Translations under genes and position numbers: made by a program | The notes under the pieces: model-generated | The model's database searches: none | What the model saw: only the letters and a program-made list of their open reading frames with translations | What the model was told of the DNA's origin: nothing | Assembly: GCA_025060695.1 (NCBI GenBank) | Contig: JANXBH010000002.1 | Span: 1 to 64,000 of the forward strand | Source of the DNA: Caldifarciminota bacterium | Lineage (GTDB): Bacteria; Hydrothermota; Hydrothermia; LBFQ01; DSFT01 | DNA: 64,000 nucleotides | Direction of reading: 5' to 3' | In this document: positions 2,801 through 58,824 of the stretch, in pieces | Position numbering within the stretch: position 1 is the first letter of the stretch | Layout of the letters: each line of letters starts with the position of its first letter

Positions 2801-4318
2801 ATGATTGAAAATTCAGTAAAAGTTTCTAAGTTAGTAGACTTTTTATAGGTGTAAAAGTGAGAGGAAAAATATGAAAAGGTGTTAGAATATTATTCAATGC
2901 TAAAATCTCTCTAATAAAAGAAGAATATTGTAAGCACTTAGGAAAACATGGAGAATTAAGTAAAGTTTGTCAGATGGAAGAAGAATTATAAAAATGAGGG
3001 AAAGAATTTGAAAGATTTTTTAAATCAAAACCATGGAGTTTACAACTTGGATAGGCAAAGAGGGTTCTTTTGGGAAATTCATTTGTTCTTCTTGCACCAA
3101 CAGGAGTAGGTAAAACTTCCTTTGGAATTTCTATAGCAAGTTTTAAAAGGAGATTTTATATTTTTCAGAAGAATCACAAAAGCAAAAGGAAATAAAAAAA
3201 GAAAGACTAAAAAGGAGACTTTAAAGTCCTTGTAAGCACTTCAATGTTTCTTTATAAAAACTAAGGAAAAGGGGAACTTGTAGTTTCTTCCGCCTTTTTA
3301 TTTAAGAAATGTTATAGATTTATACGAAGATATAGATAAAAAGCCAATTGAAGAACGGATTAAGAATTTAGGAAAAGGTGGACTTCTTTTTATATCTTCA
3401 AAAAAGTCAATCGGAAGAGGATGGATCAGATGATAGTTTCAGATGCAACTGGATATTTACAGGCAAGTGGAAGAACCTCTCGTATGTATGCAGGTGGATT
3501 AAGTAAAGGTTTAAGTATTGTTCTTGTTGATGAAAGGAGAGCATTTAAGCATTTAATAAAAAAAGTAAATAAGAATATAGAAGGAAGTATTAAAACCTGT
3601 ATTAATAATTGTAGAATCTCCAAATAAAGCAAAAACTATAGCAAACTTCTTCGTAAAGGCTATAAAAAGGAAATTTGGAGAACACAAGGTTTTAGAAACT
3701 TTCGCAGAAGATAAATATATTATGATTACAGCAAGCTTAGGGCATATATTGGATTTAAATAAGGAAGAATGGAAATATTGTGCCAGTATATATGGGATAT
3801 TGCACAATTAGTAAGACCATATAATTCTAACATAAGTATAATAGAATTTCATGAAGTAACAAAAAAAGCAATTTTAAGGGCTATTAAAGAAAAAAGAAAT
3901 ATTGATTTAAATTTAGTAAAGGGTAGGCTTTCCGCAGGAAGAGTTCAAACTCCTTTTCTTGGTTGGATAATACAAGTAGTTTCATTTACTATAGATGAAA
4001 AAGGAAGGTTTAAGATAGATTACTCTTAGAAGAGAAAATATAAGTTCCTTTACCACCTTTTAGAACTGATACTATGCTTAAGTCCGCAAACGATTTATAT
4101 CATTGGTCTCTTCCTAAAAGAACTAACTCTATTAGGGTATCTGATTTATATTTTAGAAGAATTAAAATCAAAAGAGCATCTTTTACTCTATGAGATGATA
4201 TTTAAAAGATTTATAGCAAGTCAAATGAGAGAGTTAAAGCTAAAAATAAAGAATTAGAAGTTCCTATAAAAATATTGCAAAATGGAAAGGTTTATTCTTT
4301 ATACCTTAAAATTTAAAA
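2801..4318 (+). pseudogene. rgy: Reverse gyrase, degraded pseudogene
   Basis: No single frame is open, but consecutive fragments match reverse gyrase in the right order. They are: a cysteine-containing start (EEYCKHLGKHGEL, ~2925); the helicase Q/Walker A region (KPWSLQLG, then VLLAPTGVGKTSFG, ~3035-3129); LVSTSMFL (~3237); LQASGRTSRMYAGGLSKGL (~3448-3510), the hallmark of the second helicase domain; TOPRIM IIVESPNKAKTIANFF (~3603-3650) with ITASLGHILDL (~3724); and topoisomerase [15 protein letters not shown] and [13 protein letters not shown] (~3848-3966). Later come RTNSIRVSD (~4120), where the catalytic Tyr-x-Arg-Thr-Asp motif has lost Tyr and Asp, and YEMIFKRFIASQMREL (~4190). Frameshifts, stops and deletions have removed over half of the usual ~1100-1200 codons. 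The 5' limit is inferred from the promoter at 2785. Confidence 0.9.
4307..4312 (+). promoter_or_regulatory. TAAAAT -10 element, leaderless start at 4319
   Basis: CCTTAAAATT ends 6 bases before ATG 4319. It lies inside the tail of the reverse gyrase remnant. Confidence 0.55.
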
Positions 4319-4651
4319 ATGAGTATAAATGGGGTTCTTGGGCTTTCTTTAATAGTAATGGACCTTTCTATTAAAATAGTATTGAATCTAAACGAGATGG
4401 ATAGTTATCCAGATTTTGGGCTTTTCTACGTAGGCATAATAAATCTGTTTTTTTATTTAGTAAAGGACCAGTTTGAAAAATCCTCATCAACTATCATCTC
4501 AATACTTCTAATTCTATCAGTTATATATCCTATTTCAAGTATTCTAAAGAACTTCTTAGGTTATAGTATACTAAAAAACCTTGAAGCGGGAGGATTATGG
4601 AGCTTATGTATGGCGATTATAATGATGATACTATCCAAGTTCAAAATTTAA
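4319..4651 (+). CDS. Small integral membrane protein, unknown (weak LspA-like pattern)
   Basis: 110 residues with about three to four hydrophobic segments (GVLGLSLIVMDL, FGLFYVGIINLFFYLV, IISILLILSVIYPI, LWSLCMAIIMMIL). The order D-x-x-x-K in the first helix and a later G-Y/G-G stretch faintly resemble signal peptidase II, but the N/D catalytic signature is absent, so I do not assign it. Translation would start on a leaderless mRNA. Its 3' end overlaps the SdhE-like gene by 55 bases, suggesting co-expression. Confidence 0.55.
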   Translation: MSINGVLGLSLIVMDLSIKIVLNLNEMDSYPDFGLFYVGIINLFFYLVKDQFEKSSSTIISILLILSVIYPISSILKNFLGYSILKNLEAGGLWSLCMAIIMMILSKFKI

Positions 4652-4821
4652 GAAAAAAAGCTAAATTTTTAATTTTATATAGAGGGACAAAGGAAGCTGA
4701 GGAATTACTCAAGAAATTCTACTTAGACGAGATTGATAATATGACGAAAGAAGAACTTATAGAACTTATTGAATTTTTGGAAAAGGATGATTTTACAATA
4801 TTAGAAAAACTAATTAAATAG
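4597..4821 (+). CDS. sdhE: SdhE-like FAD assembly factor (succinate dehydrogenase flavinylation)
   Basis: A 74-residue helical protein. The core RKKAKFLILYRGTKEAEELL followed by LTKEEL-like spacing and a terminal ...FLEKDDFTILEKLI matches the SdhE/SDHAF2 layout (Arg-Gly contact motif RG-T-x-E, then helices ending in D-x-D-L). SdhE promotes covalent attachment of FAD to SdhA; an sdhA gene with the FAD-linking His region lies at 20.5 kb. The start is uncertain: ATG 4597 or 4606, both inside the upstream membrane-protein gene. The RG motif and length support the family, but similarity is judged by eye only. Confidence 0.6.
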   Translation: MELMYGDYNDDTIQVQNLRKKAKFLILYRGTKEAEELLKKFYLDEIDNMTKEELIELIEFLEKDDFTILEKLIK

Positions 4822-4824
4822 ACT

Positions 4825-4853
4825 GCAACCAAAAAAGTAAGAACTTTGTCTAT
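4825..4853 (+). promoter_or_regulatory. Candidate ECF-sigma autoregulated promoter
   Basis: GCAACC at 4825-4830 and GTCTAT at 4848-4853 are separated by 17 bases. AAC in the -35 and GTC in the -10 are typical of ECF sigma promoters. A transcription start ~7 bases later would fall at or next to ATG 4860, giving a leaderless sigma mRNA. It differs from the TAAAAT elements used elsewhere. Confidence 0.4.
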
Positions 4854-4859
4854 ATTAAT

Positions 4860-5366
4860 ATGAGCCAAGATGAAAAAATAAAATTCTTTAACCACATAAT
4901 TGAAAGTTATGCAAATTATATTTATAACATAGTTTACTATAGTGTTTTAAACGAAGAGGATACTAAGGAATTAGTTCAGGATATTTTTTACAAAATTTGG
5001 AAAGGTCTTGACAACTTTAAAAACAAATCAAGTTTAAAAACTTGGATTTATAGAATTACCCAAAATCACATTAAAAACTATTTTAGAAAAAAGAAGCTTA
5101 GAAAAATAATATCATTGGAGTTCTTATTTGAAGAGAAGCATATGGACTTTGAAATGGAAGAAAACCCATACCCATATTCTATTGAATACCTACTATCAAA
5201 ATTACCTGAAGATTATAGAAGAGTTATAGTATTGTTCTATTTTGAAGATTACGATATAAAGGAAATTGCTTCTATTTTAAACATAAACGAAAATACTGTA
5301 AAGTCCAAATTACATAGAGCAAGAGAAAAGTTAAAAAAACTATGGAGGTTATACTATGAAACTTGA
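4860..5366 (+). CDS. ECF-type RNA polymerase sigma factor
   Basis: 168 residues, the usual size for a group 4 sigma factor. Region 2 runs from YANYIYNIVYYSVLNEEDTKELVQ through KTWIYRITQNHIKNYFRKKK (residues ~17-78); region 4 starts at LPEDYRRVIVLFYFEDYDIKEIA and ends with the helix-turn-helix INENTVKSKLHRAREKLKKL (~118-162). It would direct RNA polymerase to a small regulon, including probably its own promoter just upstream. The next gene overlaps by 11 bases and encodes a single-pass membrane protein, the usual place for an anti-sigma factor. Confidence 0.9.
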   Translation: MSQDEKIKFFNHIIESYANYIYNIVYYSVLNEEDTKELVQDIFYKIWKGLDNFKNKSSLKTWIYRITQNHIKNYFRKKKLRKIISLEFLFEEKHMDFEMEENPYPYSIEYLLSKLPEDYRRVIVLFYFEDYDIKEIASILNINENTVKSKLHRAREKLKKLWRLYYET

Positions 5367-5748
5367 AGTGAAAACCATACCCAACGATTTAAAGAATTTA
5401 CTATATCAAATACCATATAGGGAAAAGAAAAGAAAATTTCTACCCATCTCATTAGGTATAATTACCCTTGCAACTTTGTTAATTTATATAAAAAGTGCTT
5501 TCTTTACATATAATAAACACTTTGAATATACTGGACCTAAAGACGGGGAAGTTATTTTACCTTCCGAATTCTCCGTAATATCTAAAGAACCAATAAAAGT
5601 GTTTATTAATTCTGAACTTATTGAACCAAGAAAAGAAAATAAATACTACATATTTGAAAAAGAATTAGAAGAGGGAGAATATATTTTAGAGATAGTTAAG
5701 GAAAACACGAAGCATAAAATAAAATTCTATGTTGTGGATATTGGCTGA
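5356..5748 (+). CDS. Single-pass membrane protein, candidate anti-sigma factor
   Basis: 130 residues. A basic cytoplasmic N-terminus (~30 residues, ending EKKRKFL) precedes one transmembrane helix (PISLGIITLATLLIYI, ~31-46) and an extracytoplasmic beta-rich domain of ~80 residues. That domain reads like an Ig/fibronectin-type fold (GPKDGEVI..., KPIKVFINSELIEP, LEEGEYILEIV). The cytoplasmic part is shorter than a standard zinc-binding anti-sigma domain and has no His/Cys motif. The anti-sigma role is inferred only from topology and the overlap with the sigma gene. Confidence 0.65.
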   Translation: MKLEVKTIPNDLKNLLYQIPYREKKRKFLPISLGIITLATLLIYIKSAFFTYNKHFEYTGPKDGEVILPSEFSVISKEPIKVFINSELIEPRKENKYYIFEKELEEGEYILEIVKENTKHKIKFYVVDIG

Positions 5749-6727
5749 AATTAGAACCTTTGTTGGAGATACTATAAGTTTTGAAAGTAAAGTTATAAAG
5801 GTTATTCCAAAAGAAAAAGCTTATGTATTTTCAAATTCAATTATTCCAATGAAACCCGGAAGGGCTATTGTAATAACTGAGAATTCCGAAATACCTATAT
5901 TTATAGCGAAACTAAAAAAGATAAAATTACCTTACGATAGTCTTATTTTAAATGTAGGAGATAGCATAGAATTAAATTTTGGAAATTACAAATATGAAAT
6001 AAGACCAAAACTATTAGGAAATATTCAAGGAAATAAGCTTTTTATAATTTCTCCCGGTAGAGGAATCTTAATAGCAAAAACAGAAAAGGCTATTGGAAAA
6101 ATAAAAATTATAGCAATAGTAAAGAACAAAAAGGAAATTAAGTTAGACTTATTTGATAAAATTGTGTTGGATATGGGAGAGAGAAGAGTTTTTAGTGGTT
6201 ATAAAATAATATCAAAGGGGGATAAAATTAAAGCTATATCTGATACCATAGAAGCAATAAAGTATGGTATTGAAAAAGTTAGAATTTTTTATGAAAGCAA
6301 AGATAGTTATGGATATAAGGATGTAATTGTTATAGTAAAGCCTAAGTTTATGGAAATAATTTCAAAAACTGGTGATAAGGTAAAGATTGGAAATACAGCA
6401 AAAATAGTATTTTCAAAGGGAGATGTTATTATCAAGGATAGTTTTTTATATTGTCAAAGTCAGTGCTATGGAATTATAAGATTAAATGGCAGGCTTGTTC
6501 CATTCCTATTCCACAAAGATGCATATAAAGAAAGTGAAGAAAAAGATTTTCTTATTATTGAAAATTCTTTTAATATTCCAAAGCCTTTAGAAGTTTTAGA
6601 CTATTTTCCTAAAAGGAAAATAAAAATAATCAACAACAAAATTATAGTAAAGGAGAAAGGTTTAGCCTTTCTACTTGTAAAAACTGAAAAAGGTATTACA
6701 ATTATAAAAATTATTGCAACATTCTGA
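5729..6727 (+). CDS. Repeated beta-domain protein, unknown, in sigma-factor operon
   Basis: About 330 residues; ATG 5729 or TTG 5741 (which overlaps the preceding stop) could initiate. It contains several ~80-residue beta-rich units starting with FVGDTISF, NVGDSIEL, TGDKVKIG and similar G-D-x-I motifs, and ending in patterns like IPMKPGRAIVI and ISPGRGILIA. This recalls bacterial Ig-like (BIG2) domains, in which P-G-x-A/G-x-I closes each repeat. No signal peptide is evident at either start, which is odd for an Ig-like protein. It may be the sensor or target partner of the membrane protein upstream (inference). Confidence 0.6.
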   Translation: MLWILAEIRTFVGDTISFESKVIKVIPKEKAYVFSNSIIPMKPGRAIVITENSEIPIFIAKLKKIKLPYDSLILNVGDSIELNFGNYKYEIRPKLLGNIQGNKLFIISPGRGILIAKTEKAIGKIKIIAIVKNKKEIKLDLFDKIVLDMGERRVFSGYKIISKGDKIKAISDTIEAIKYGIEKVRIFYESKDSYGYKDVIVIVKPKFMEIISKTGDKVKIGNTAKIVFSKGDVIIKDSFLYCQSQCYGIIRLNGRLVPFLFHKDAYKESEEKDFLIIENSFNIPKPLEVLDYFPKRKIKIINNKIIVKEKGLAFLLVKTEKGITIIKIIATF

Positions 6728-6731: not shown

Positions 6732-7721
6732 TTATTTCTTTACTGAGGTAATTTCGTAGTATAACAATTTTATTTCCTTAACAAGCTCATTTAAATTTAT
6801 CTTTTCCTTAGCAGAAATCTTTATTACCTTATGACCTTCTATAGTATCTGGTATTAAACTCTTATCAAAAATGTCAATCTTGTTCGCAATTAATAAATAT
6901 GGTTTTTTTAGAATCTCCGGATTATAGGCTAAAATTTCTTGCTTCAAAACTGAAAATTGTTCTAAAATATCACCCTGAGTAGGGTCTAATAGAAATAGAA
7001 TTATTCTTACCCTTTCAACATGTCTTAGAAAACTTATTCCTAAACCTTTACCTTTGCTTGCATTTTCTATTAAACCCGGTATATCCACAACTATTATTCT
7101 ATTGTAATAATCGTCTACTATTACTCCTAAATTTGGAAAGAGTGTTGTAAATGGATAGTTAGCTATTTTACTTTTTGAAGAAGTTATCGCATTTAATAAA
7201 GTGGATTTTCCTGCATTTGGAAATCCTACTATTCCAACATCTGCAATAGTCTTAAGTTCAAGTTTTAATTTAAGTTTTTTTGAAGGCTCTCCTTCCTCCG
7301 CAAATTGCGGAGCTCTATTTTCAGCACTTGCAAAATGATAATTTCCTCTACCACCTTTACCACCATTTAAAATAAGAACTTTCTGATTATGATATAATAT
7401 TTCACCTAACTTTTCACCTGTTTCAAAATTATAAATTATAGTTCCTATAGGAACTTTAATATTTATATCTTCTCCCTTTTTACCCCTCATCTTCTTTGGC
7501 TTTCCATTACCTCCATCCCCTGCCTTAAAAAATCTTTTTTTTCTAAAATGTAATAAGGAATTAAGACTACTATCCCCTACTATATAAACATTTCCCCCAT
7601 CTCCACCATCACCGCCATCAGGACCTCCTCTTGGAACATACTTTTCTCTTCTAAAGTGAACTAAACCATTCCCTCCTCTACCTGATTCTACAACTATATA
7701 AGCAATATCGTAAAAATTCAT
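6732..7721 (-). CDS. obgE: Obg GTPase (ribosome assembly)
   Basis: 329 residues. The N-terminal Obg fold (1-158) is glycine-rich (GRGGNGLVHFRREK, GPDGGDGGDGGNVY). The G domain carries G1 GFPNAGKST (~168), the switch TLFPNLG, G3 DIPG (~213), G4 NKID (~283) and G5 SAKE (~306). The C-terminal OCT domain seen in some Obg proteins is absent. Obg acts in late 50S assembly and the stringent response. It overlaps the upstream PIN gene by 4 bases and is convergent with the sigma operon only a few bases away, leaving no room for a separate terminator. Confidence 0.95.
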   Translation of the reverse strand: MNFYDIAYIVVESGRGGNGLVHFRREKYVPRGGPDGGDGGDGGNVYIVGDSSLNSLLHFRKKRFFKAGDGGNGKPKKMRGKKGEDINIKVPIGTIIYNFETGEKLGEILYHNQKVLILNGGKGGRGNYHFASAENRAPQFAEEGEPSKKLKLKLELKTIADVGIVGFPNAGKSTLLNAITSSKSKIANYPFTTLFPNLGVIVDDYYNRIIVVDIPGLIENASKGKGLGISFLRHVERVRIILFLLDPTQGDILEQFSVLKQEILAYNPEILKKPYLLIANKIDIFDKSLIPDTIEGHKVIKISAKEKINLNELVKEIKLLYYEITSVKK

Positions 7722-8253
7722 AAGAGGTCGTAAAAATTTGCAGGTTCCATAACTTCTATACCAAGCTCCATGGCAAGTTTAACTTGACCTTCATCATAAG
7801 TAGACAAGATAGCTTTCTGCTCAAGACATAGTAAAATCGTATCTATATCTTCTTTTGAGTCCACTATTCCCTCTCTCATTACTCTTCTATAGTTTTCCCT
7901 TAGATATTTAATAGCCTCATCTTTGTTTACATATTCTCTTACTGCTTTTTCTGAAACTCTTAAACCACGATTTATTCTATCTCTTATTTCTTCAAGCAAA
8001 TTATACAAAACAATTCCGGGTATTTTTACTTTGTATCTATTCGGAGTTTTAATCCTAAAGAACTTTCTAAATTCCTTTGGTATTGTAATAAAAGTTGACA
8101 GTTCCCTTAGTGTATTTGGTGTTAAATATATCTGTATTTCAGATTTTTTTTTAGTTTATCTATTATCCATAGGACTGCCTCTTCAATAGTATTAGCCACA
8201 TTTCTATAACTATAAGGATTTGTTAAAACACTTGTATCTAATACTATTTTCAT
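7718..8253 (-). CDS. PIN-fold protein (RNA ligase partner-like), frameshifted at a run of nine A
   Basis: Reading from ATG 8253 gives MKIVLDTSVLTNP, a PIN-domain start with the first catalytic Asp, and continues to LKKN. There the frame breaks at nine A residues (minus-strand sense; 8144-8152). One extra A would join it to SEIQIYLTPNTLRELSTF... and on to the 96-codon downstream frame. That part carries the PIN acidic residues (DSKEDIDTILLCLEQKAILSTYDEGQ) and the ending GIEVMEPANF. The layout fits the family found beside RNA ligases (RNA ligase partner proteins), although no ligase is seen here. Either polymerase slippage, a sequencing error or recent inactivation explains the break. ATG 8253 overlaps the stop of the upstream lipoprotein. 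Confidence 0.7.
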
Positions 8254-8657
8254 TAGTTATAGACGCAGCTATTTGCATATATTATAACATTACTAAATAC
8301 CTTATTACTCACTTTAAATGTATCTGGCGTTGAGCCATAGCATATCCAAGTTCTTGTTTCCTTAATACCATTTACTTTCACCTGAAATTTTAAATATCCA
8401 TTTTCATAACCCTGTGGGATACCTATTTTTATGCTATCAAATACTATAACTTTGCTATTACTACTCCTTGTCTCACCCTGTATATTAACTCTACCATTGT
8501 ATATTCCATATAATGTATAGTTTTGAACTATATTCATGGAATCATTGACATATATAGTTCCTGAAACTTTCAACGTATCAACTATAACTATTTCCTCAGT
8601 TTTATCTCTTGAAGGATTACATGCAAGAAGAATAAGAAAAATTGATAAATATCTCAT
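8253..8657 (-). CDS. Predicted lipoprotein, unknown
   Basis: 134 residues with a short signal MRYLSIFLILLAC; the LLAC lipobox gives lipidation at Cys13. The mature part is beta-rich (TLKVSGTIYVNDS, TLYGIYNGRVNIQG, ITYANSCVYN) and resembles a small beta-sandwich, with no recognised family. Its ATG lies only 3 bases from the 3' end of tRNA-Lys, so tRNA 3' processing would leave a nearly leaderless mRNA. Its stop overlaps the PIN gene start. Confidence 0.75.
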   Translation of the reverse strand: MRYLSIFLILLACNPSRDKTEEIVIVDTLKVSGTIYVNDSMNIVQNYTLYGIYNGRVNIQGETRSSNSKVIVFDSIKIGIPQGYENGYLKFQVKVNGIKETRTWICYGSTPDTFKVSNKVFSNVIIYANSCVYN

Positions 8658-8748: not shown

Positions 8749-8754
8749 ATTTTA
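8749..8754 (-). promoter_or_regulatory. TAAAAT -10 element of tRNA-Lys
   Basis: Minus-strand GCTTTAAAATTTTGC; the core ends 14 bases before the mature tRNA 5' end, leaving a short precursor leader. This acts as an internal control for the motif's role as a -10 element. Confidence 0.7.
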
Positions 8755-9247: not shown

Positions 9248-9253
9248 TAAAAT
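9248..9253 (+). promoter_or_regulatory. TAAAAT -10 element, leaderless TTG start at 9260
   Basis: GTTTAAAATT; the core ends 6 bases before TTG 9260. Confidence 0.65.
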
Positions 9254-10396: not shown

Positions 10397-10402
10397 TAAA
10401 AT
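10397..10402 (+). promoter_or_regulatory. TAAAAT -10 element of miaB
   Basis: ACTTTAAAATTG; the core ends 11 bases before ATG 10414. The 221-base stretch before it (10193-10413) has stops in all frames and no other feature I can name. Confidence 0.6.
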
Positions 10403-11694: not shown

Positions 11695-11696
11695 AA

Positions 11697-12068
11697 TTGG
11701 AAATTGAAATTTTAAAAAAGTATCAAAACGGAAAGTTTTCTATTATAGAGCTATTAACAAAAAGTAAAATGGTTTATAAAGTTCTAAAAATTATATATGA
11801 AAAAAATAATAAAGAAAGTGCATATTTGGGAATAAGAAAGATTGGAGAAATACTTGGTTATAAGAATATTATTTCAAAAATTGTGAAAATGCTTGAAAAG
11901 GAAGAAATAATAGAAGCAAAGTTAGAGAAATTAACTAAAAGAAAACCAAGAAAAGTGCCATATTTAACTAAAAAAGGAGAAATTTTATTTCAACAAGCAA
12001 AAAAAAGAAAAATTTTAATATTAAAGAAAAGACTACAAAGAATAAGGAAAGAATTATCAGAGCTTTAA
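11697..12068 (+). CDS. Small basic winged-helix-like protein
   Basis: 123 residues from TTG 11697, immediately after miaB. Two-thirds reads as a winged helix: VYKVLKIIYEKNN, then IRKIGEILGYKNIISKIVKMLEKEEII (helix-turn-helix), then a strand pair and YLTKKGEILFQQAKKR. The C-terminal tail is strongly basic and helical (KKRLQRIRKE). It probably binds DNA. It lies directly before a sufD-like gene that has its own leaderless promoter overlapping this gene's stop, so a regulator of Fe-S assembly (as SufR/IscR elsewhere) is possible, although no cluster cysteines are present. Confidence 0.6.
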   Translation: MEIEILKKYQNGKFSIIELLTKSKMVYKVLKIIYEKNNKESAYLGIRKIGEILGYKNIISKIVKMLEKEEIIEAKLEKLTKRKPRKVPYLTKKGEILFQQAKKRKILILKKRLQRIRKELSEL

Positions 12069-12071
12069 AAT
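12066..12071 (+). promoter_or_regulatory. TAAAAT -10 element of sufD-like gene
   Basis: GCTTTAAAATTT; the core starts with the TAA stop of the upstream gene and ends 6 bases before ATG 12078. Confidence 0.65.
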
Positions 12072-12077: not shown

Positions 12078-13304
12078 ATGCTCATTAACACTAAATTTTT
12101 AGATGAAGTTAAAGAATTATCAGCTTTCCACTATAAAAATCTTCAACCTTTAAGAAATAAGTATGTAGACTATAGAATTTTAGAGCCCGAAAAGTATAAC
12201 CCGGATGCATTTTCAGAAATAGATATTTCAGATTATATAAAGGAAATAGAGAAAGATGAAATTTTAGGATATTTAGTATTTGTAGACAACAAACTTACGG
12301 CTATTAACATAGATGAAAGTTATAAAAATAATGGATTAATTGTAGAAGAAATTCTTAAAGCTCTTAATAGCATGGACTTTAACTTCTCCGCATACTTTTC
12401 AAAAATAGCAAGTCCTCAAGAGAGTAAATTCAATGCAAATCACTATCTGAATTTAAAAACTGGAGCTTTTATATATGTCCCTAAAAACTTAGTTATAGAA
12501 AAGCCATTACATATATTATTTATACACTCATCAGACAATGTAGCATTATATCCTCATATTTTACTTATTCTTGATAAAAATTCAAAGTTTAACTATATAG
12601 ACTACGTTATTTCAAAGAATGAAGAGATTAGTGGATTTTACAATCCTATATATGAAGTTTATTTACATGATGATTCAATATTGAACTTTTTATCAATTTA
12701 TAGACCAAATTTAAATGTATATTCTTATGGAAGCAGGAGAGTAATTATAAATAGAGATAGTAAAGCATATGTTAATCATGTTTGGCTTGGTGGAAAATAT
12801 AGTGTAAATTACATGGAATTATTTTTTAATGGAGAAGGAAGTGAGGGAGAAGATAATCAAATTTTCCTTGGAAGAAGTAAACAATTTTATAGTCTATATT
12901 CAAAACTAATGCATAGAGTAGGTAGTAGTGTTGGTAATGTGCTTGTAAAGGGTGCTTTAAAAGATAAGGCAAGAAGCCACTTTGATGGTCTAATAAAGAT
13001 ATTTCCAAAAGCACAAAAATCAAATGCATACCTACAAGAACATACATTATTACTTAATCCTGAGACGAGGTCCGATGCAATACCGGGACTTGAAATTTCA
13101 TCTAATGATGTAAGATGCACACATTCCGCAACTGTGAGTGAGGTTGATAGTGAAAAACTATTTTACTTAAAATCAAGAGGCATATCTGAAGAAGAAGCAA
13201 AGAAACTACTCGTACTTGGTCATTTTCAAACAGTATTAGAAAAGATAAACATAGAAAACTTAAAAGAAAAAGTTATAAAAATGATAGATGCAGTTTTTAA
13301 ATGA
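12078..13304 (+). CDS. sufD: SufD/SufB-family Fe-S cluster assembly scaffold subunit
   Basis: 408 residues. The N-terminal part is helical (FHYKNLQPLRNKYVDY). The C-terminal beta-helix core ends with the conserved block TRSDAIPGLEISSNDVRCTHSATVSEVD and the helical cap LKSRGISEEEAKKLLVLGHF, both diagnostic of SufB/SufD proteins. Ending and length fit SufD better than SufB. No sufC ATPase or sufB lies in the window, so it is separated from its usual partners, or it acts as a stand-alone paralogue. The 3' end overlaps the next gene by 17 bases. Confidence 0.85.
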   Translation: MLINTKFLDEVKELSAFHYKNLQPLRNKYVDYRILEPEKYNPDAFSEIDISDYIKEIEKDEILGYLVFVDNKLTAINIDESYKNNGLIVEEILKALNSMDFNFSAYFSKIASPQESKFNANHYLNLKTGAFIYVPKNLVIEKPLHILFIHSSDNVALYPHILLILDKNSKFNYIDYVISKNEEISGFYNPIYEVYLHDDSILNFLSIYRPNLNVYSYGSRRVIINRDSKAYVNHVWLGGKYSVNYMELFFNGEGSEGEDNQIFLGRSKQFYSLYSKLMHRVGSSVGNVLVKGALKDKARSHFDGLIKIFPKAQKSNAYLQEHTLLLNPETRSDAIPGLEISSNDVRCTHSATVSEVDSEKLFYLKSRGISEEEAKKLLVLGHFQTVLEKINIENLKEKVIKMIDAVFK

Positions 13305-17021: not shown

Positions 17022-17027
17022 ATTTTA
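17022..17027 (-). promoter_or_regulatory. TAAAAT -10 element of sucD
   Basis: Minus-strand TGTAAAATTTT; 6 bases to the ATG, 18 bases from the opposing element at 17046. Confidence 0.65.
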
Positions 17028-17045: not shown

Positions 17046-17051
17046 TAAAAT
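17046..17051 (+). promoter_or_regulatory. TAAAAT -10 element of nuoC
   Basis: ACTTTAAAATTT; the core ends 9 bases before ATG 17061. Confidence 0.65.
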
Positions 17052-18263: not shown

Positions 18264-18269
18264 TAAAAT
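18264..18269 (+). promoter_or_regulatory. TAAAAT -10 element, leaderless ATG at 18277
   Basis: GCTTTAAAATTG; 7 bases to ATG 18277, which argues against the GTG two codons upstream (18271), only 1 base away from the element. Confidence 0.65.
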
Positions 18270-20139: not shown

Positions 20140-20546
20140 TTTATATTTCAAAAAGTGAAGAGGAAACAGAAAATTTAGGTTTTCAGCTTGCACGAAGTAT
20201 TAATCTTAACAATTTACCTATAGTAATTAGACTATTTGGGGACTTAGGAAGTGGAAAGACTACTTTTGCAAGGGGATTTTTGAAGTTTTTTAATATAAAG
20301 CACATAAGAAGTCCAAGCTTTGTTATAGTAATTGAGTATAAATACCAAGATATTTTCATTTACCATATGGACTTTTATAGACTTAGTTTTAAAGAAGTTG
20401 TTAATTTTGATTTTAGTGAAATTTTGAAAAAAAAGTCAATAGTTCTAATTGAATGGTGTCCCAAGGAATTTGAGTTTCAAAATTCAATTGATGTATATTT
20501 TGAAATAATTTCAGAAAACGAAAGAACTTTAAAATTTATGCTATGA
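20136..20546 (+). CDS. tsaE: tRNA threonylcarbamoyladenosine biosynthesis ATPase TsaE
   Basis: 136 residues. P-loop GDLGSGKTTFARGFL (~36-50), RSPSFVIVIEY (~62) and MDFYRL (~81), then IEWCPKEF (~107), are all TsaE signatures. With TsaB and TsaD it makes t6A37 of ANN-decoding tRNAs. It overlaps accC and sdhA by 4 bases each, so this trio is one transcription unit. Confidence 0.93.
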   Translation: MIYISKSEEETENLGFQLARSINLNNLPIVIRLFGDLGSGKTTFARGFLKFFNIKHIRSPSFVIVIEYKYQDIFIYHMDFYRLSFKEVVNFDFSEILKKKSIVLIEWCPKEFEFQNSIDVYFEIISENERTLKFML

Positions 20547-23206: not shown

Positions 23207-23212
23207 TAAAAT
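23207..23212 (+). promoter_or_regulatory. TAAAAT -10 element of tgt
   Basis: CATTAAAATTT; 6 bases to ATG 23219. Confidence 0.65.
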
Positions 23213-24345: not shown

Positions 24346-26547
24346 ATGCTTGTTATTTTGATTGTAGAAACTAACACAAAAGCTGGTAAAATAAATAATT
24401 TGGAAGAGATAACTTCTAATTCTAACTACTATATACCTAAGATTGACCATGCTTACAAAGTTGCCCCATTCTTCGGCTGGACACCTGAAAAAGAAGAAAT
24501 AGCTAACTCCATAAGAAATGGAAAACTTAGGGTTGATGAAATATTCCTACTAAATAGAATATCAAGACTTGATAGTTTCTATAATGAGCTATGGAAAAAG
24601 GAAAAACATGCGGTATGCGAGAGATATTCCATAAAAGGACTGTCTTGTCCAGAGCAACATATTCACATGGAAAGGATATATCATTATTATAACAAATGGA
24701 AAAATCAAAATGACGCTTGGGCATATGCAGAAATGGTCACACTAATAGAAGATGGCGAAAGATTACTTAGTGCATATGTAGATTTAGAAAATTCAAAAAA
24801 GGTAAAGAACGTCCCACCTGCTACTACTGTAGAACCACACCCTGAAATACAAAACAAGAGCTTCCCAAAAGATAGTTTTCGCATACTTACAGATGGTGCA
24901 AACTGGAATACATTTGCAATTGCAAACTCAGTAGCAAATGAGTATAACCCTACTATCGTTCAAGTCGGTAGAGAAGATACACTGATTGCTGGACTGAGTG
25001 TAAGACCATGTAATAATTGGTGTTTAACGAATTTTACTGGAGAATGCATTTTAATTTCAAGGTCAGTAAATGCAGGTCAAACTTGGAATCCCTTACTTTG
25101 TATTGTCCCTCCTTCAAATAATCCATATAATGTTGGTGAGGTTGCAATAGGAGCTGACCCATATAGAAGACTATTCGTAGTTGCATATACAAGCGATTAC
25201 TATTATCCAGATTATGATATAGGACAGATAACATTTCGTGCTAATGGAACTGTAGTTTATAATACTTGGGTAGATATCTCAACAGTTTCTACTTTAACAC
25301 CATACGTAAATGCTGAGTTTAACTGGGGAAGAAGTGGATGTGAAGGACAGCCATTAAGTGGTTCTTGCACTTGTAGTGCCGATGATAACTGGTTCTATAT
25401 TGGTATGAATAAAGGAGGTGGTGTAAGGATATACAGATCCACTACTTGTGGTTCTTCTTGGTCTCAGATTTACGATGGACCTGCAAGAACAGGTTCAGCA
25501 TATGCGAATAATCAAATAATGCTTGAAACAACTAATGATCCAAGAAGCGGTTCTTCTGTTTGCGCTTCATCAAATGGAGGAGATAATACTATACAGGCGG
25601 TTTACGGTTGGAGAAACTCTACAACTGACCATAGAATTACACACTTGTATACTGATATTAATCAAGGTTGGGGAAATACGTGGACAGAAACAAATGTTTT
25701 AGCAAACTACAGTTATCCTATAAACCAACCATGGCTCGCTGTCGCAAGAAGATTAACTACGACTAATACTACTCATTTCCTTGTATTTGAAAGTCAATAT
25801 AGTAGTACTGATGGAGATATTAGATATATTAGAGCTTCAGGAATTCCACCTGGTACCTGGTCGGCTGTCCAAAATATAGATTACACAACTGTTGATAGTA
25901 GAACTCCTACGGTTCACACGGATGCAAGATGGCAGTTTTGTCCAGGTGCTGCATCCAATACCGCAAACTTCTTTCATGTGGCTTTTTATCATAGATGTCA
26001 AAGTATAGATAATTCATTGTGCAATGATGCAGGCTATAATAATACATTTAGAGTAGCAGTTTTAAGATATAACTGGGATTTAACTCAAAGGGGTCCTGAG
26101 GTTTGTGGAAATCTTGTTGCGGATACTATTGCCATTCCTCCTCCCCCAGCATATTCTAATGGAGGGCTTTGGCAAAATTGGTGGCAGATAAATGGAACTA
26201 CATTTAGAACAAGCTATGTTCAAAATGCACCTTGGTGGTTTGGCACTATGTGGGTTTATATCTATAGGCAAAGTCCTCTTGACTTGGATATGATGTGGAC
26301 AATACTAAGCCACAATTGCATTACCCCTGTAAGTAGTAATGAGTTAAAAGAAGGAAAAGATTTTCTAATTAGAGGTAAAAATATGGAAATATACATTAAA
26401 GGTGATTGGAAGTTTATAGTTTATGACGTTTCAGGAAAGAAGATTTTAGAGAGAACAGGTAAAGGAGAAAGCAAACTACATTTAAATTTACCAAAGGGCG
26501 TTTATATCTACAAACTAAATCAAAACTTAGGAAAATTTGTAATATAG
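24346..26547 (+). CDS. Secreted sialidase-like/BNR protein with type IX-like C-terminal sorting domain
   Basis: 733 residues. N-terminus MLVILIVETNTKAGK is short, hydrophobic and lacks early Lys/Arg. A charged helical region (~20-130) is followed by a ~500-residue beta-rich domain with Ser/Asn/Thr, Trp and many Cys residues and phrases like ISRSVNAGQTWNPL, YRSTTCGSSWSQIYDG and IDNSLCNDAGYNN, as in six-bladed sialidase/BNR propellers. The last ~75 residues (WKFIVYDVSGKKILERTG ... PKGVYIYKLNQNLGKFVI) match a T9SS type A sorting domain. TATACT at 24332-24337 lies 8 bases before the ATG; an AGGAGG/ATG pair at 24282/24294 in another frame is an alternative start (see findings). A terminator follows. 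Confidence 0.75.
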   Translation: MLVILIVETNTKAGKINNLEEITSNSNYYIPKIDHAYKVAPFFGWTPEKEEIANSIRNGKLRVDEIFLLNRISRLDSFYNELWKKEKHAVCERYSIKGLSCPEQHIHMERIYHYYNKWKNQNDAWAYAEMVTLIEDGERLLSAYVDLENSKKVKNVPPATTVEPHPEIQNKSFPKDSFRILTDGANWNTFAIANSVANEYNPTIVQVGREDTLIAGLSVRPCNNWCLTNFTGECILISRSVNAGQTWNPLLCIVPPSNNPYNVGEVAIGADPYRRLFVVAYTSDYYYPDYDIGQITFRANGTVVYNTWVDISTVSTLTPYVNAEFNWGRSGCEGQPLSGSCTCSADDNWFYIGMNKGGGVRIYRSTTCGSSWSQIYDGPARTGSAYANNQIMLETTNDPRSGSSVCASSNGGDNTIQAVYGWRNSTTDHRITHLYTDINQGWGNTWTETNVLANYSYPINQPWLAVARRLTTTNTTHFLVFESQYSSTDGDIRYIRASGIPPGTWSAVQNIDYTTVDSRTPTVHTDARWQFCPGAASNTANFFHVAFYHRCQSIDNSLCNDAGYNNTFRVAVLRYNWDLTQRGPEVCGNLVADTIAIPPPPAYSNGGLWQNWWQINGTTFRTSYVQNAPWWFGTMWVYIYRQSPLDLDMMWTILSHNCITPVSSNELKEGKDFLIRGKNMEIYIKGDWKFIVYDVSGKKILERTGKGESKLHLNLPKGVYIYKLNQNLGKFVI

Positions 26548-26572: not shown

Positions 26573-26578
26573 TAAAAT
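26573..26578 (+). promoter_or_regulatory. TAAAAT -10 element, exchanger/mraY operon
   Basis: GTTTAAAATTT; 10 bases to ATG 26589, directly after the terminator. Confidence 0.6.
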
Positions 26579-30268: not shown

Positions 30269-30274
30269 ATTTTA
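30269..30274 (-). promoter_or_regulatory. TAAAAT -10 element of tRNA-Ala
   Basis: Minus-strand ACTTTAAAATTTTAAAC; the core ends 15 bases before the tRNA 5' end. Confidence 0.65.
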
Positions 30275-31852: not shown

Positions 31853-31858
31853 ATTTTA
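31853..31858 (-). promoter_or_regulatory. TAAAAT -10 element of tRNA-Ile
   Basis: Minus-strand ACTTTAAAATTTTGAAC; the core ends 12 bases before the tRNA 5' end. Confidence 0.65.
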
Positions 31859-37311: not shown

Positions 37312-37317
37312 ATTTTA
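37312..37317 (-). promoter_or_regulatory. TAAAAT -10 element of GT2 gene
   Basis: Minus-strand GTTTAAAATTT; 6 bases to ATG 37305, inside the short gap after rlmH. Confidence 0.6.
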
Positions 37318-38571: not shown

Positions 38572-38577
38572 ATTTTA
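38572..38577 (-). promoter_or_regulatory. TAAAAT -10 element of TPR/rlmH operon
   Basis: Minus-strand GCTTTAAAATTT; 9 bases to ATG 38562 and 11 bases from the opposed element at 38589. Confidence 0.65.
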
Positions 38578-38588: not shown

Positions 38589-38594
38589 TAAAAT
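38589..38594 (+). promoter_or_regulatory. TAAAAT -10 element of argS
   Basis: ACTTTAAAATTTTGC; 5 bases to GTG 38600, the shortest gap in the set. Confidence 0.65.
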
Positions 38595-41029: not shown

Positions 41030-41035
41030 ATTTTA
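41030..41035 (-). promoter_or_regulatory. TAAAAT -10 element of DUF4388-like gene
   Basis: Minus-strand CTTTAAAATTTATAG; 7 bases to ATG 41022. Confidence 0.6.
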
Positions 41036-41062: not shown

Positions 41063-41068
41063 TAAAAT
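41063..41068 (+). promoter_or_regulatory. TAAAAT -10 element, leaderless ATG at 41076
   Basis: CCTTAAAATTA; 7 bases to the start codon. Confidence 0.6.
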
Positions 41069-41316: not shown

Positions 41317-41322
41317 TAAAAT
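41317..41322 (+). promoter_or_regulatory. TAAAAT -10 element of methyltransferase/ATP-grasp gene
   Basis: GCTATAAAATTATG; 8 bases to GTG 41331. This spacing favours GTG 41331 over ATG 41337. Confidence 0.55.
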
Positions 41323-45172: not shown

Positions 45173-45178
45173 ATTTTA
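45173..45178 (-). promoter_or_regulatory. TAAAAT -10 element of UXS gene
   Basis: Minus-strand GCTTTAAAATTTC; 10 bases to TTG 45162; 11 bases from the opposed element at 45190. Confidence 0.65.
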
Positions 45179-45189: not shown

Positions 45190-45195
45190 TAAAAT
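45190..45195 (+). promoter_or_regulatory. TAAAAT -10 element of UDP-sugar dehydrogenase operon
   Basis: ACTTTAAAATTATG; 11 bases to ATG 45207; an out-of-frame ATG at 45197 is skipped. Confidence 0.6.
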
Positions 45196-53219: not shown

Positions 53220-53230
53220 GAGTACTAAAA

Positions 53231-53236
53231 TTTTAA
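53231..53236 (-). promoter_or_regulatory. TAAAAT -10 element of fusA
   Basis: Minus-strand ACTTTAAAATTTTAG; 11 bases to ATG 53219. Confidence 0.65.
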
Positions 53237-53260
53237 AGTCCTATATTTTACTCCAGCTTT

Positions 53261-53266
53261 AAAATT
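53261..53266 (+). promoter_or_regulatory. TAAAAT -10 element of SQR-like gene
   Basis: GCTTTAAAATTTTG; here the start GTG 53296 lies 29 bases downstream and is preceded by AAGGGGG (53284-53289 region), so this mRNA has a short leader, unlike most others with the motif. Confidence 0.6.
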
Positions 53267-54943: not shown

Positions 54944-54978
54944 TAAAATTTAGTTTTTAACTATAGGAGGTAAAGAAT

Positions 54979-55971
54979 ATGATAAAAGTAGGTATAAATG
55001 GTTTTGGAAGGATAGGAAGGGAAGTTTTCAAGATAGCACAAAGTAGTAAGAACCTTGAGATAGTTGCTATAAACGATATAACTGATGCTAAGACTTTGGC
55101 TCATCTTCTAAAATACGATTCCATATATGGTATTTATAAAGCTGATATAAACTATGAAGGCAATGAATTAATAGTGGATGGAAAAAGAATAAAGGTATAT
55201 AGCTTTCAAAATCCGAGTGATATACCTTGGCAAGAGCACAATATAGAAATAGTAGTTGAAGCATCAGGTAAATTTACTGATAAAGAAAACGCCATAAAAC
55301 ATCTAAGAGGTTCAGTAAAAAAAGTAATAATTACCGCACCCGGTAAAAAAGAAGATATTACTATAGTTCTTGGTGCAAACGAACATCAATATGATCCACA
55401 AAAGCATCATATTATATCAAACGCATCTTGCACAACTAATGCATTTGCACTCATGGTAAAAGTACTACACGAAAACTTCACTATTGAAAAAGGTTTAATG
55501 ACAACAGTTCATAGTTATACAAACGATCAAAGAGTATTAGATTTAGCTCATAAGGACCTAAGAAGAGCAAGAGCTGCAGGTTTAAATATCATCCCTACTT
55601 CAACAGGTGCAGCAAATACCATATTTAAAATCTATCCAGAACTTGAAGGCAAAATAGATGCAATATCATTAAGAGTTCCAACACCAACAGTTTCCATAGT
55701 GGACTTTGCGGTTATTTTAAAGAAGAAAGTAACAAAAGAAGAAATAAACCAAGCTTTTAAATCTGCCCAAAATAAATATATTGGATATACCGAAGAACCT
55801 TTAGTTTCTTCAGATTTTATAGGTGATGAAAGAAGTGTAATAGTAGATGGGGGATTAACTCAAGTCGTAGATGATAATTTTGTAAAAGTTTTTGGATGGT
55901 ACGATAATGAATGGGGCTATTCAAGAAGAGTAGTTGATTTAATTGAGTATATAATTAGTAAAACATATTAA
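54979..55971 (+). CDS. gap: Glyceraldehyde-3-phosphate dehydrogenase
   Basis: 330 residues; AGGAGG 8 bases upstream of the ATG. NAD domain IKVGINGFGRIGREVF (~2-17), catalytic Cys in SNASCTTNAFALMVKVL (~148-164), TTVHSYTNDQRVLD (~174-187), RRARAAGLNIIPTSTGAA (~193-210), GWYDNEWGYSRRVVDL (~308-323). NAD is favoured by the Asp of NDITD at ~34. It works with pgk at 61.6 kb in glycolysis or gluconeogenesis. Confidence 0.96.
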   Translation: MIKVGINGFGRIGREVFKIAQSSKNLEIVAINDITDAKTLAHLLKYDSIYGIYKADINYEGNELIVDGKRIKVYSFQNPSDIPWQEHNIEIVVEASGKFTDKENAIKHLRGSVKKVIITAPGKKEDITIVLGANEHQYDPQKHHIISNASCTTNAFALMVKVLHENFTIEKGLMTTVHSYTNDQRVLDLAHKDLRRARAAGLNIIPTSTGAANTIFKIYPELEGKIDAISLRVPTPTVSIVDFAVILKKKVTKEEINQAFKSAQNKYIGYTEEPLVSSDFIGDERSVIVDGGLTQVVDDNFVKVFGWYDNEWGYSRRVVDLIEYIISKTY

Positions 55972-55972
55972 C

Positions 55973-56001
55973 TTGAAAAATTTTTTTTCATCCTTTATAA
56001 T
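55973..56001 (+). promoter_or_regulatory. Near-consensus sigma70-type promoter, leaderless ATG at 56009
   Basis: TTGAAA (55973-55978), 17-base spacer, TATAAT (55996-56001), then 7 bases to ATG 56009. It is the only leaderless start here with both elements clear, and it shows that the 5-11 base gap seen with TAAAAT is the normal distance from -10 to a leaderless start. Confidence 0.75.
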
Positions 56002-56008
56002 TTTCGGT

Positions 56009-56335
56009 ATGACGAGAAGGACATTTTTAAAATTGGCTGTTATCGCTGGGTTATTGGGTTTTCTCTTTAGAGGAAAAGCCTTCTCTAAAACCTATACTAC
56101 AAAGTCTATAAAGTTCGTAGAAAAATCAGGTAATGAATATAAGGTAGTATTTTCAGATGGCTCAATCCTTTCAGTAAATGAAACGGGCTTATATGTCCTT
56201 GGTAGAATAAAAGAAGGGGCAAGCATAAATCAAATAGCAAGCGAACTATCAAAACTCTCAGGCAAGAACATTTCATTAATAAAGGAAGATATAGGAGTAT
56301 TTTTAGATAATCTAAGGGTTTTGAGAGTCGTATAG
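56009..56335 (+). CDS. Tat-signal protein with PqqD-like domain
   Basis: 108 residues from ATG 56009 (a longer frame from 55973 is open but overlaps the promoter). The N-terminus MTRRTFLKLAVIAGLLGFLF has a twin-arginine motif RRTFLK and hydrophobic core, so it is predicted for folded export. The rest, VVFSDGSILSVNETGLYVLG (~48-67), IKEGASINQIASELSKLSG and ISLIKEDIGVFLDNLRVL (~89-106), has the PqqD/RRE layout (N-x-T/E-G-x-x-x-L...G-x-S/T-x-x-x-I...D-V-x-x-F-L-x-x-L). PqqD-type domains normally bind peptide precursors in the cytoplasm. Export would be unusual. The assignment is by eye. Confidence 0.65.
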   Translation: MTRRTFLKLAVIAGLLGFLFRGKAFSKTYTTKSIKFVEKSGNEYKVVFSDGSILSVNETGLYVLGRIKEGASINQIASELSKLSGKNISLIKEDIGVFLDNLRVLRVV

Positions 56336-57070
56336 TTGAAAAATATTATAGTAATTCCTGCGAGGTATAATTCGCAAAGATTAAAAGGTAAAGTTTTATT
56401 AGAACTAAAAGGAAAAACTATTTTAGAATGGGTATTAGAAAAAGCATCAAAATCAAAATTAGCACATGACATCGTAGTTGCTACAGAGGATATTAGAGTT
56501 TATGAGCATGTAGAGAAATTAGGATATAGATGCTTTTTAACTTCTAACGAACACAAAAGTGGAACTGATAGAATCAGTGAGGTTTTGTATAAACTAAGCG
56601 AGCATTATTACATTGTAAATCTTCAAGCGGACGAACCATTTATAGAACCAAAAATAATAGACAGTATATTTGAAAAACTACACGTTGATAAAGAAGCACA
56701 TATTATTACACCTGTAGCAAAGATAAGAGATGAAAAAGAGGTAAATAATCCTAACATTGTAAAAGTAGTTTTTGATAAAAACTTTTTTGCAATATATTTT
56801 TCCAGAAGTGCTATACCATATAATAGAAGTGGTAATGCAGTATACTACAAGCATATTGGGATTTATGGATATAAAAGGGATAGTCTATTTAGTTTTGTAA
56901 ATTTATCTGCTTCAAAGCTTGAGGAAACCGAAGGTTTAGAGCAACTTAGAGCTATTGAAAATGGACTAAAAATTAGATGTATTTTGGTTAATTACGATGG
57001 AATTTCTATAGATACTATTCAGGACTTAGAAAAAGCAAGAGTTATACTTGAAAATGGAAGAGATTTATAA
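56336..57070 (+). CDS. kdsB: 3-deoxy-manno-octulosonate cytidylyltransferase
   Basis: 244 residues from TTG 56336, one base after the upstream stop. VIPARYNSQRLKGKVLLEL (~6-24), IVVATEDIRVYEHVEKLG (~44-61), LTSNEHKSGTDRISEV (~65-80), VNLQADEPFIEP (~90-101) and HIGIYGYKRDSLFSF (~160-174) are all family motifs. It activates Kdo as CMP-Kdo for lipid A core, so an LPS-type outer membrane is implied. The last 17 bases overlap queA. Confidence 0.93.
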   Translation: MKNIIVIPARYNSQRLKGKVLLELKGKTILEWVLEKASKSKLAHDIVVATEDIRVYEHVEKLGYRCFLTSNEHKSGTDRISEVLYKLSEHYYIVNLQADEPFIEPKIIDSIFEKLHVDKEAHIITPVAKIRDEKEVNNPNIVKVVFDKNFFAIYFSRSAIPYNRSGNAVYYKHIGIYGYKRDSLFSFVNLSASKLEETEGLEQLRAIENGLKIRCILVNYDGISIDTIQDLEKARVILENGRDL

Positions 57071-58055
57071 CTTAGACTATTACGACTACAAAGTAAATAA
57101 GAAACTAATAGCACAAGAACCATTAAAAGAAAGAGATAAAGCAAGGCTTATGGTAATTCATAGAGAAAGTGGTAAAATAGAACACAGAATATTTAGAGAT
57201 ATTGTAGATTATCTTAATAAAGATGACTGCCTTGTATTGAACAATAGTAAAGTAATTAAAGCAAGAATCATTGGAGAACTAAATGGACAAGAAGTTGAAA
57301 TATTTTACACAAGAACTATAAATGAGAATGAATTTGAGGGCATAGGAAAGCCTTTAAGAAAACTAAAGAAGGGAAAAACTATAAAAGTTAAGGAATATGA
57401 GATTTTGGTAAAAGAAGAACTAAGAGGAAAAAGAATATTCTTTTTAGAAAATTTTATGAATGTTTTTGAAAAATACGGAATTATTCCACTTCCACATTAT
57501 ATTAATAGAAAGCCTACAAAAGAGGATGAAGTATTTTATCAAACCGTTTATGCAAAAGATGAAGGTTCAGTTGCTGCACCTACAGCAGGACTTCACTTTA
57601 CAAAAGAACTAATAGAGCAAATTCAAGAAAAAGGAGTAAATGTTTGCTATATAACATTACATGTAGGTATTGGGACATTTAAACCAATAACTGAAAAAGA
57701 TATTAGAAAACATACCATGGATAAGGAGTTTTATGAGATACCTGATGAAACTGCCAAAATAATAAAAACCTCAAAAAGAATAATAGCAGTAGGCACAACA
57801 ACTACAAGAGCATTGGAGTATTGGAACTTTGACGAAAATCCAACAAAAGGATGGACGAACTTATTTATCCATCCACCATATAAATTTAAGGTAATACATG
57901 GATTAATTACAAACTTTCACCCACCGAAGTCAACACCCTTAATATTAGTTAGTGCATTTATAGGAAGTTTTGAAAAACTAAAAAGAGCCTACGAAATTGC
58001 ACAAGAAGTAGAATATAGGCTTTTCTCATATGGAGACGCAATGCTAATACTTTAA
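57054..58055 (+). CDS. queA: S-adenosylmethionine:tRNA ribosyltransferase-isomerase
   Basis: 333 residues from ATG 57054 (TTG 57048 would add two residues). YNLDYYDYKVNKKLIAQEPL split (~4-23), RDKARLMVIHR (~26-36), CLVLNNSKVIKARIIGE (~61-77), TVYAKDEGSVAAPTAGLHFT (~164-183), ITLHVGIGTFKPI (~199-211) and TNFHPPKSTPLILVSAFIG (~279-297). It makes epoxyqueuosine from preQ1 in tRNA, following Tgt. The stop TAA is part of the next promoter (58053). Confidence 0.95.
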   Translation: MEEIYNLDYYDYKVNKKLIAQEPLKERDKARLMVIHRESGKIEHRIFRDIVDYLNKDDCLVLNNSKVIKARIIGELNGQEVEIFYTRTINENEFEGIGKPLRKLKKGKTIKVKEYEILVKEELRGKRIFFLENFMNVFEKYGIIPLPHYINRKPTKEDEVFYQTVYAKDEGSVAAPTAGLHFTKELIEQIQEKGVNVCYITLHVGIGTFKPITEKDIRKHTMDKEFYEIPDETAKIIKTSKRIIAVGTTTTRALEYWNFDENPTKGWTNLFIHPPYKFKVIHGLITNFHPPKSTPLILVSAFIGSFEKLKRAYEIAQEVEYRLFSYGDAMLIL

Positions 58056-58058
58056 AAT
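58053..58058 (+). promoter_or_regulatory. TAAAAT -10 element of etfBA
   Basis: ACTTTAAAATTT; begins with the queA stop codon; 7 bases to ATG 58066. Confidence 0.65.
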
Positions 58059-58065
58059 TTTAAAT

Positions 58066-58824
58066 ATGCGTATTCTCAATATTTTTAAAAGAGTCCCTGA
58101 TACATATGCGGAAATCAAATTGAGTAAAGATAATTCGGATATAGATAAAGAAAATCTAAACTATGTAATTGATCCATATGGAGAATATGCAATGGAAACA
58201 TCATTAAGAATAAAAGATAAAGATAGTTCCATAGAACTTGTTGTTTTGACAATAGGTCCTGAAAACTCAACCGAACTACTAAGAAATGCATTAGCACTTG
58301 GCTTTGATATTAGCTATTTAATTAAATACGAAAATTACGAAAAACTATCACCTCTTGCATTGTCAAAAATATATATAAAATTTATAGAAAAATATGGACC
58401 ATTTGACATTATTTTTTTACCAAAAGTTGACATTGATACCAATTTCCATTCAATATGTGGATACTTGGCAGGATATTTAAACATAAACTTCATTACAAGT
58501 ATAACAACTGCAGAGATAGTTGATAACCACGCTATAGTAGAAAGAGAAACAAGTATGGGAAAAGAAAAGTTAAAAATAAAAACTCCTTGCATTTTAAGCC
58601 ATGATAAAGCACCTTATGAAATTAGATTAGCAAGCTTAAAAGGTATAATGCTTTCAAAAAAGAAACCAATAAATATTATTGAATTATCAGAATTAGAAAT
58701 AAAGATAGAAGAGCACATCATAAGAAATACTCTAAGACTTCCACCACAAAGAAAAGGAGTAAAATTTTTAAATAATGCTGATGAACTTATAAAAGTGCTA
58801 AAAGAGGAGATAAAGATATTATGA
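58066..58824 (+). CDS. etfB: Electron transfer flavoprotein, beta subunit
   Basis: 252 residues. [17 protein letters not shown] (~3-19), [20 protein letters not shown] in the AMP-binding N-domain (~29-48), [20 protein letters not shown] (~60-79), [20 protein letters not shown] in two parts (~183-202) and a C-terminal [13 protein letters not shown] arm. With the alpha subunit it carries electrons from acyl-CoA or other dehydrogenases to quinone or ferredoxin. Four-base overlap with etfA. Confidence 0.94.

Follow-up and report, generated by a model that had tools for sequence, protein, structure and literature searches.

We describe here a promoter box that very probably drives leaderless mRNAs in a Caldifarciminota bacterium (GenBank assembly GCA_025060695.1), a draft genome of 1.50 Mb with 30% GC and 94.9% completeness. 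The box was noticed in a stretch of 64,000 nucleotides (nt), hereinafter the window, which forms one end of a contig of 172,825 bases (JANXBH010000002.1). We are highly confident that RCTTTAAAATTT acts as a single-box sigma-A -10 promoter of leaderless mRNAs, GTG and TTG starts included. According to this scenario, RCTTTAAAATTT would be the -10 element of the primary sigma factor, with TAAAAT at -12 to -7 and a conserved C at -15; it would work without any -35 element, and transcription would begin 7–8 nt past the core. In most genes heading a transcription unit, the first RNA base would coincide with the start-codon A or precede it by a few bases, giving a leaderless mRNA (0–5 nt of leader), and the ribosome would initiate on the 5'-terminal AUG, GUG or UUG without Shine-Dalgarno (SD) pairing. 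A minority of genes would have the same box 18–40 nt or more upstream, often with an SD site. The first-pass annotation of the window had already proposed that transcription starts at or next to the start codon and that translation is leaderless; this proposal gains support from the genome-wide distance histogram, from the box at transcripts other than mRNAs and from the bounds set by a riboswitch and by tRNAs.

Distance between the box and start codons

Stretches totalling 796 kb, or about 53% of the genome, were taken as sample A (460 kb) and sample B (336 kb); gene calling relied on coding potential alone, and the matrix of one sample was used to score the other. When ATG triplets were counted with no gene calls at all, 82 of them stood at offset 5–10 after the exact 10-mer CTTTAAAATT in sample A (12.7 expected; 132 boxes) and 51 in sample B (8.9 expected; 95 boxes), so that both samples together had an ATG 6–11 nt past the TAAAAT core 133 times versus 21.6 expected. 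Over the whole genome, the pattern CTTTAAAATT-N5-10-ATG is present in 240 copies, compared with 9 for the reversed control pattern. A motif search by expectation maximization upstream of unit-first genes returned the same motif, RCTTTAAAATTTT, from two independent samples; its matrix, R-C-T-T-T-A-A-A-A-T-T-T-(T), was found in 70% (A) and 67% (B) of these genes. The consensus of the box comprises 13 nt and carries ~14 bits. The hexamer TATAAT, with 1147 (A) and 958 (B) copies, showed no ATG peak in either sample, and we rejected it as the general -10 element of this genome.

The first-pass annotation had expected the cores to end 5–11 bases before start codons throughout the genome, and the distance histogram came out as predicted. 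Its sharp peak spans gaps of 6 (24 genes), 7 (46), 8 (20), 9 (39), 10 (18) and 11 nt (8); the histogram is nearly empty at 12–20 nt and returns at 18–40 nt with SD genes. Two humps separated by a valley, which falls at leader lengths too small to hold an SD, are what a mixture of leaderless and leadered classes would be expected to give. Sample A also showed a dip at a single gap length, which we disregarded because sample B lacks it.

Genes whose core ends ~6–11 nt before the start (near-box genes hereinafter, n = 221) make up 30% of the 745 classed genes. Near boxes head 135 of the 206 divergent genes (66%), and about two thirds of the genes that are clearly first in line almost certainly have mRNAs that begin at the start codon, with neither leader nor ribosome-binding site. 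An SD of at least 5 nt is seen in none of the 221 near-box genes, versus 19 of the 72 genes with a farther box, and the 3' end of the 16S rRNA, CACCTCCTTT, is a standard anti-SD. Start codons other than ATG follow the same rule, as had been claimed for the window. An in-frame ATG is found at offset 4–10 in 145 of the 224 boxes for which a start was called no more than 60 nt away; for the remaining 79 boxes, in-frame GTG (18) and TTG (26) cluster at offset 4–10 and are almost missing elsewhere. Judging from this peak at the distance of ATG, GTG and TTG starts at boxes are real.

In a genome of 30% GC, one might suspect that the box is a by-product of AT-richness, combined with start codons called to fit. 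The window carries 17 copies of CTTTAAAATT, however, versus 2.37 expected, and none of 100 dinucleotide shuffles, which yield 2.4 boxes, reached as many; the equally AT-rich TATAAT has no peak. Moreover, the same architecture is found at 51% GC in G002, which belongs to another genus of the same family, and at 53% and 57% GC in G008 and G005 of a sister family (f2). The shuffles and the GC-rich relatives already refute this explanation, to which we assign a practically negligible probability.

The box as a probable promoter and the predicted place of the RNA start

The box is found not only in front of protein-coding genes. It lies upstream of 21 of the 24 tRNA transcription units, with gaps of 7–15 nt to the 5' ends set by ARAGORN, upstream of the tmRNA and ~60 nt upstream of the 16S rRNA. 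In a cobalamin riboswitch (L103, positions 5758-5926, minus strand), the 10-bp P1 closing stem, GCTCGTTAGC/GCTAACGAGC, begins 6 nt past TAAAAT. Such company of tRNAs, tmRNA, 16S rRNA and a riboswitch indicates that the box acts on transcription. RNase P RNA and signal recognition particle RNA, sought as controls with unprocessed 5' ends, were not found in the genome. The riboswitch stem implies that the transcript begins at or before the seventh nucleotide past the core, and the shortest tRNA gap, 7 nt, caps the distance of the RNA start. Bacterial RNA polymerases begin about 7 nt past the -10 hexamer. Combined, the stem, the short tRNA gaps and this known spacing would place +1 at the seventh or eighth nucleotide past the core, which in turn would leave near-box mRNAs with leaders of 0–5 nt.

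The first-pass annotation had used the three tRNAs of the window, with gaps of 12–15 bases, as an internal control for the transcription start. The gaps themselves stand, being 14 nt for tRNA-Lys (core at 8749..8754), 15 nt for tRNA-Ala (30269..30274) and 12 nt for tRNA-Ile (31853..31858), all on the minus strand and counted to Rfam 5' ends, and the logic of the control is sound. However, these three represent the long end of the range, and the 7–15 nt of all 21 units overlap the mRNA range, so the contrast had been overstated. The useful bound on the RNA start comes from the short tRNA gaps and not from the three tRNAs of the window.

To look for a -35 element, we aligned 227 near-box promoters; the information content stayed at or below 0.09 bit at every position between -50 and -17 (counted from the core), and TTGA was flat across spacings. 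No -35 element was seen in G002 or G008 either, although at 51% and 53% GC it would stand out. Positions -11 (A) and -7 (T) of TAAAAT are invariant among the matched sites (100%), as is required of a sigma-70 -10 element. Upstream of the core, C occupies -15 in 92% and T occupies -14 in 85% of the promoters; the aligned promoters of this genome do not have the TG at -15/-14 of extended -10 elements. One site of the window had been described as a full TATAAT with TTGAAA at a 17-base spacing (55996..56001, plus strand). Its gap of 7 to ATG 56009 was confirmed, but the -35 half of the description finds no counterpart, since a -35 signal appears nowhere genome-wide. The TTGAAA is most likely incidental, and CTTTATAATT simply represents a box variant (CTTTATAATTTT) with a TATAAT core.

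It could also be argued that the box enhances translation as an AU-rich element, such as an S1 protein site, lying in a normal 5' leader whose RNA starts further upstream. The box does occupy the SD position, and in other phyla AT-rich tracts near -10 have been interpreted as potential S1 sites (PMC5397173). Nevertheless, an enhancer of translation would not be expected before tRNAs, tmRNA, 16S rRNA and a riboswitch; no further conserved element appears up to 50 nt upstream, and an S1 site would not be as rigid as this 13-nt consensus of ~14 bits. We regard such an enhancer as highly improbable.

Several points nonetheless weigh against reading RCTTTAAAATTT as a promoter of leaderless mRNAs. 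The lack of an SD in near-box genes is partly mechanical, with the box sitting in the place of the SD. The start codons come from computation (coding potential) and the RNA starts from sequence geometry. Finally, a scatter of 1–2 nt in the start site may put a leader of 1–5 nt on about half of the messages. While the box, its position, its spread across the order and the absence of -35 and SD elements are established from the DNA itself, we infer from them the recognition by sigma-A, the exact RNA start and a translation that would depend on the 5' end.

Compaction, conservation and the sigma factor

The near boxes are often merged with neighboring signals. In 20 of the 86 same-strand near-box genes, the TAA of the box doubles as the stop codon for the gene upstream (in the window, at 12078 and 58066). 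Near boxes stand on both sides in 46 of the 103 divergent pairs, mostly in intergenic gaps of 31–52 bp. At least four divergent pairs by automated count, and approximately six by eye, have one palindromic box common to both genes, in gaps of 18–23 bp; these are C44:30281-30300, C44:44002-44025, C6:23238-23257, C3:14467-14489 and cases on C33 and C11, with aatagcat-CTTTAAAATTTTAAAGCT-atggaacc as an example with an 18-bp gap. The palindromic box would apparently serve as two predicted leaderless promoters on one site, active both ways. By geometry, the predicted starts would be 15 bp apart, within the 7–25 bp by which PMC10268837 defines bidirectional promoters. The symmetric promoters of Warman et al. 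(2021), as that paper presents them, are alike in that two -10 elements overlap on opposite strands; here, in contrast, the whole gap is only 18–23 bp, and the products would be the predicted leaderless mRNAs of the adjoining genes.

In divergent gaps, the inverted pairs (AATTTTAAAG-n-CTTTAAAATT) and the palindromic boxes might also bring to mind an operator of some global regulator, with the promoter being a separate sequence. Yet a single copy is enough for most genes, and the spacing of paired copies varies (6–31 bp and more) whereas each copy keeps a fixed distance to its start. In addition, the box is found on housekeeping genes, tRNAs and rRNA alike, and no other promoter motif was found. 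An operator is highly improbable, and the promoter reading of RCTTTAAAATTT is retained below.

We then turn to the relatives. The exact CTTTAAAATT-ATG arrangement has 351 copies in G001, a member of the same genus, and 68–70 in G002 and G003 of the same family, and is near background elsewhere. When the hexamer was relaxed to TANAAT, it was found 5–11 nt before 31 of 64 divergent genes in G002, 44 of 62 in G008 and 8 of 10 in G005, with only 0–2 at control distances. G008 has the box TnCnnCCTTANAATA, in which C occupies -18 in 90% of cases and -15 in 74%. The architecture itself recurs across the order at 28–57% GC, and the sister family uses a different -10 consensus. GC content differs between two genera of one family with the same promoter architecture, being 28–30% in this genome (G000) and G001 versus 51% in G002. 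Class-mates outside the order have TANAAT at 5–11 nt in 3 of 18 to 10 of 18 divergent genes, and in every one of them, TATAAT-N6-9-ATG is about twice as frequent genome-wide as its reversed control, or more. Judging by this excess, leaderless starts seem to be an ancestral trait of the class that was expanded in the order. Among orthologues with matching starts, the boxed genes of our genome are also boxed in 12 of 13 cases in G001 and in 16 of 19 in G002, and the flanks of the boxed orthologues in G002 align no better than chance (28% identity).

The primary sigma factor (a 542-aa open frame, L117) has DHARIIRIP in region 2.4, where the E. coli counterpart is DQARTIRIP. His in place of Gln437 (E. 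coli position) is present in all the order members read (G000–G004, G006 and G007); Ile in place of Thr440 is found in this species and not in the other members read. Both substitutions suppress a T-to-C change at -12 in E. coli (PMC2613000). As a cause of the family-specific CTTTAAAATT box, His437 is weakened by the sister family f2, which has His437 but a different box. It is weakened further by family f4, whose single sigma read (G026) has Gln437, while another member, G018, shows a GC-TTTATAAT tendency. Between the sigma substitutions and the box, the sequences suggest a correlation only. As a tentative and rather doubtful extension, the order might have a one-element promoter code, in which a sigma factor altered in region 2.4 (His437, plus Ile440 in this species) would read only an extended -10 element with C at -15 (and at -18 in the sister family); the loss of -35 might then have let the promoter, the RNA start, the start codon and the neighbor's stop or an opposite promoter merge into ~20 bp.

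Primary-sigma promoters of Campylobacter and Helicobacter likewise have a -10-only consensus in an AT-rich genome, but their mRNAs are generally leadered, and periodic T-tracts upstream replace the -35. Extended -10 promoters (TGn at -15/-13; PMC2613000) are similar in having conserved bases before the hexamer and in being independent of -35; they differ from our RCTT, which has C at -15 and no TG, and from family f2 with C at -18 and -15. The closest parallel is provided by the TA-led leaderless genes predicted in Actinobacteria, Deinococcus-Thermus and two of five Aquificae genomes (Zheng et al. 2011, PMC3160421), in which a TA-like -10 signal lies ~12 bp upstream (first T to start) and no SD is present. 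There, the signal is TANNNT or TATAAT, whereas here it is a rigid 13-nt TAAAAT box with C at -15, no -35 and a presence on 66% of divergent genes (135/206). By analogy, the mechanism would be that of the TA-led genes; what differs is the rigid single-element promoter without -35, its dominance throughout the order, and the palindromic boxes and promoters fused with stop codons. If this scenario is true, we are dealing with an uncultured order whose unit-first genes use leaderless initiation as a rule rather than as a minority mode, and in which promoters, RNA starts and most unit-first start codons could be read from DNA alone. The same architecture over 28–57% GC would offer a natural test of the co-evolution of a sigma factor and its -10 box and of leaderless translation, and gene calling in these genomes would improve, as the box fixes GTG and TTG starts.

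Boxes and other features of the window

All the starts for which the first-pass annotation had claimed a core 5–11 nt upstream were re-measured, from the 3' end of the TAAAAT (or TATAAT) core to the start codon, and every one proved correct; the boxed start at 20543 had been missing from its list. On the plus strand, the cores are located at 4307..4312 (gap 6 to ATG 4319), 9248..9253 (gap 6 to TTG 9260), 10397..10402 (gap 11 to ATG 10414 of a radical SAM/UPF0004-type, MiaB-like protein), 12066..12071 (gap 6 to ATG 12078 of a SufB/D-type gene, the box TAA ending the open reading frame (ORF) 11697-12068), 17046..17051 (gap 9 to ATG 17061), 18264..18269 (gap 7 to ATG 18277), 20530..20535 (gap 7 to ATG 20543 of a succinate dehydrogenase/fumarate reductase flavoprotein, shortly before the 3' end of the upstream ORF), 23207..23212 (a CATTAAAATTTT variant, gap 6 to ATG 23219 of tgt), 26573..26578 (gap 10 to ATG 26589, Na/Ca exchanger family), 38589..38594 (gap 5 to GTG 38600 of argS), 41063..41068 (gap 7 to ATG 41076 of a short ORF), 41317..41322 (gap 8 to GTG 41331), 45190..45195 (gap 11 to ATG 45207, UDP-glucose/GDP-mannose dehydrogenase) and 58053..58058 (gap 7 to ATG 58066, the box TAA ending ORF 57048-58055). 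On the minus strand, they are located at 17022..17027 (gap 6 to ATG 17015, divergent from 17061), 37312..37317 (gap 6 to ATG 37305), 38572..38577 (gap 9 to ATG 38562, back-to-back with the 38589 box in a 37-bp gap), 41030..41035 (gap 7 to ATG 41022), 45173..45178 (gap 10 to TTG 45162) and 53230..53235 (gap 10 to ATG 53219 of fusA, EF-G). An internal contrast is provided by the core at 53260..53265 (plus strand), which lies 30 nt before GTG 53296 of a leadered gene with AAGGGGG shortly upstream of that start. The box at 2782-2791, the sole exact copy in the window with no obvious start or tRNA just 3' of it, may belong to a short gene or RNA that escaped annotation.

Other observations concern different subjects. 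At window positions 7721-8272 (minus strand, L254), the gene for an RNA-free RNase P of the HARP family (PF08745/TIGR03875) changes frame at nine consecutive A residues (A9, 8144-8152) and is thereby interrupted. G001 has the same A9 run with the HARP frame broken at the identical codon, while the frame is intact in G002 and G003; a search for type-A RNase P RNA in our genome found none. Such conservation suggests that the run is a putative slippage (frameshift) site in a tRNA 5'-processing enzyme. A CRISPR-DR2-type direct repeat lies at the stretch end of L103 (16819-16848). Lastly, the proteins encoded at 24346-26547 and 59781-61595 of the window have a weak C-terminal type IX secretion sorting domain (TIGR04183, barely above the cut-off), which is unexpected outside Bacteroidota-related phyla.

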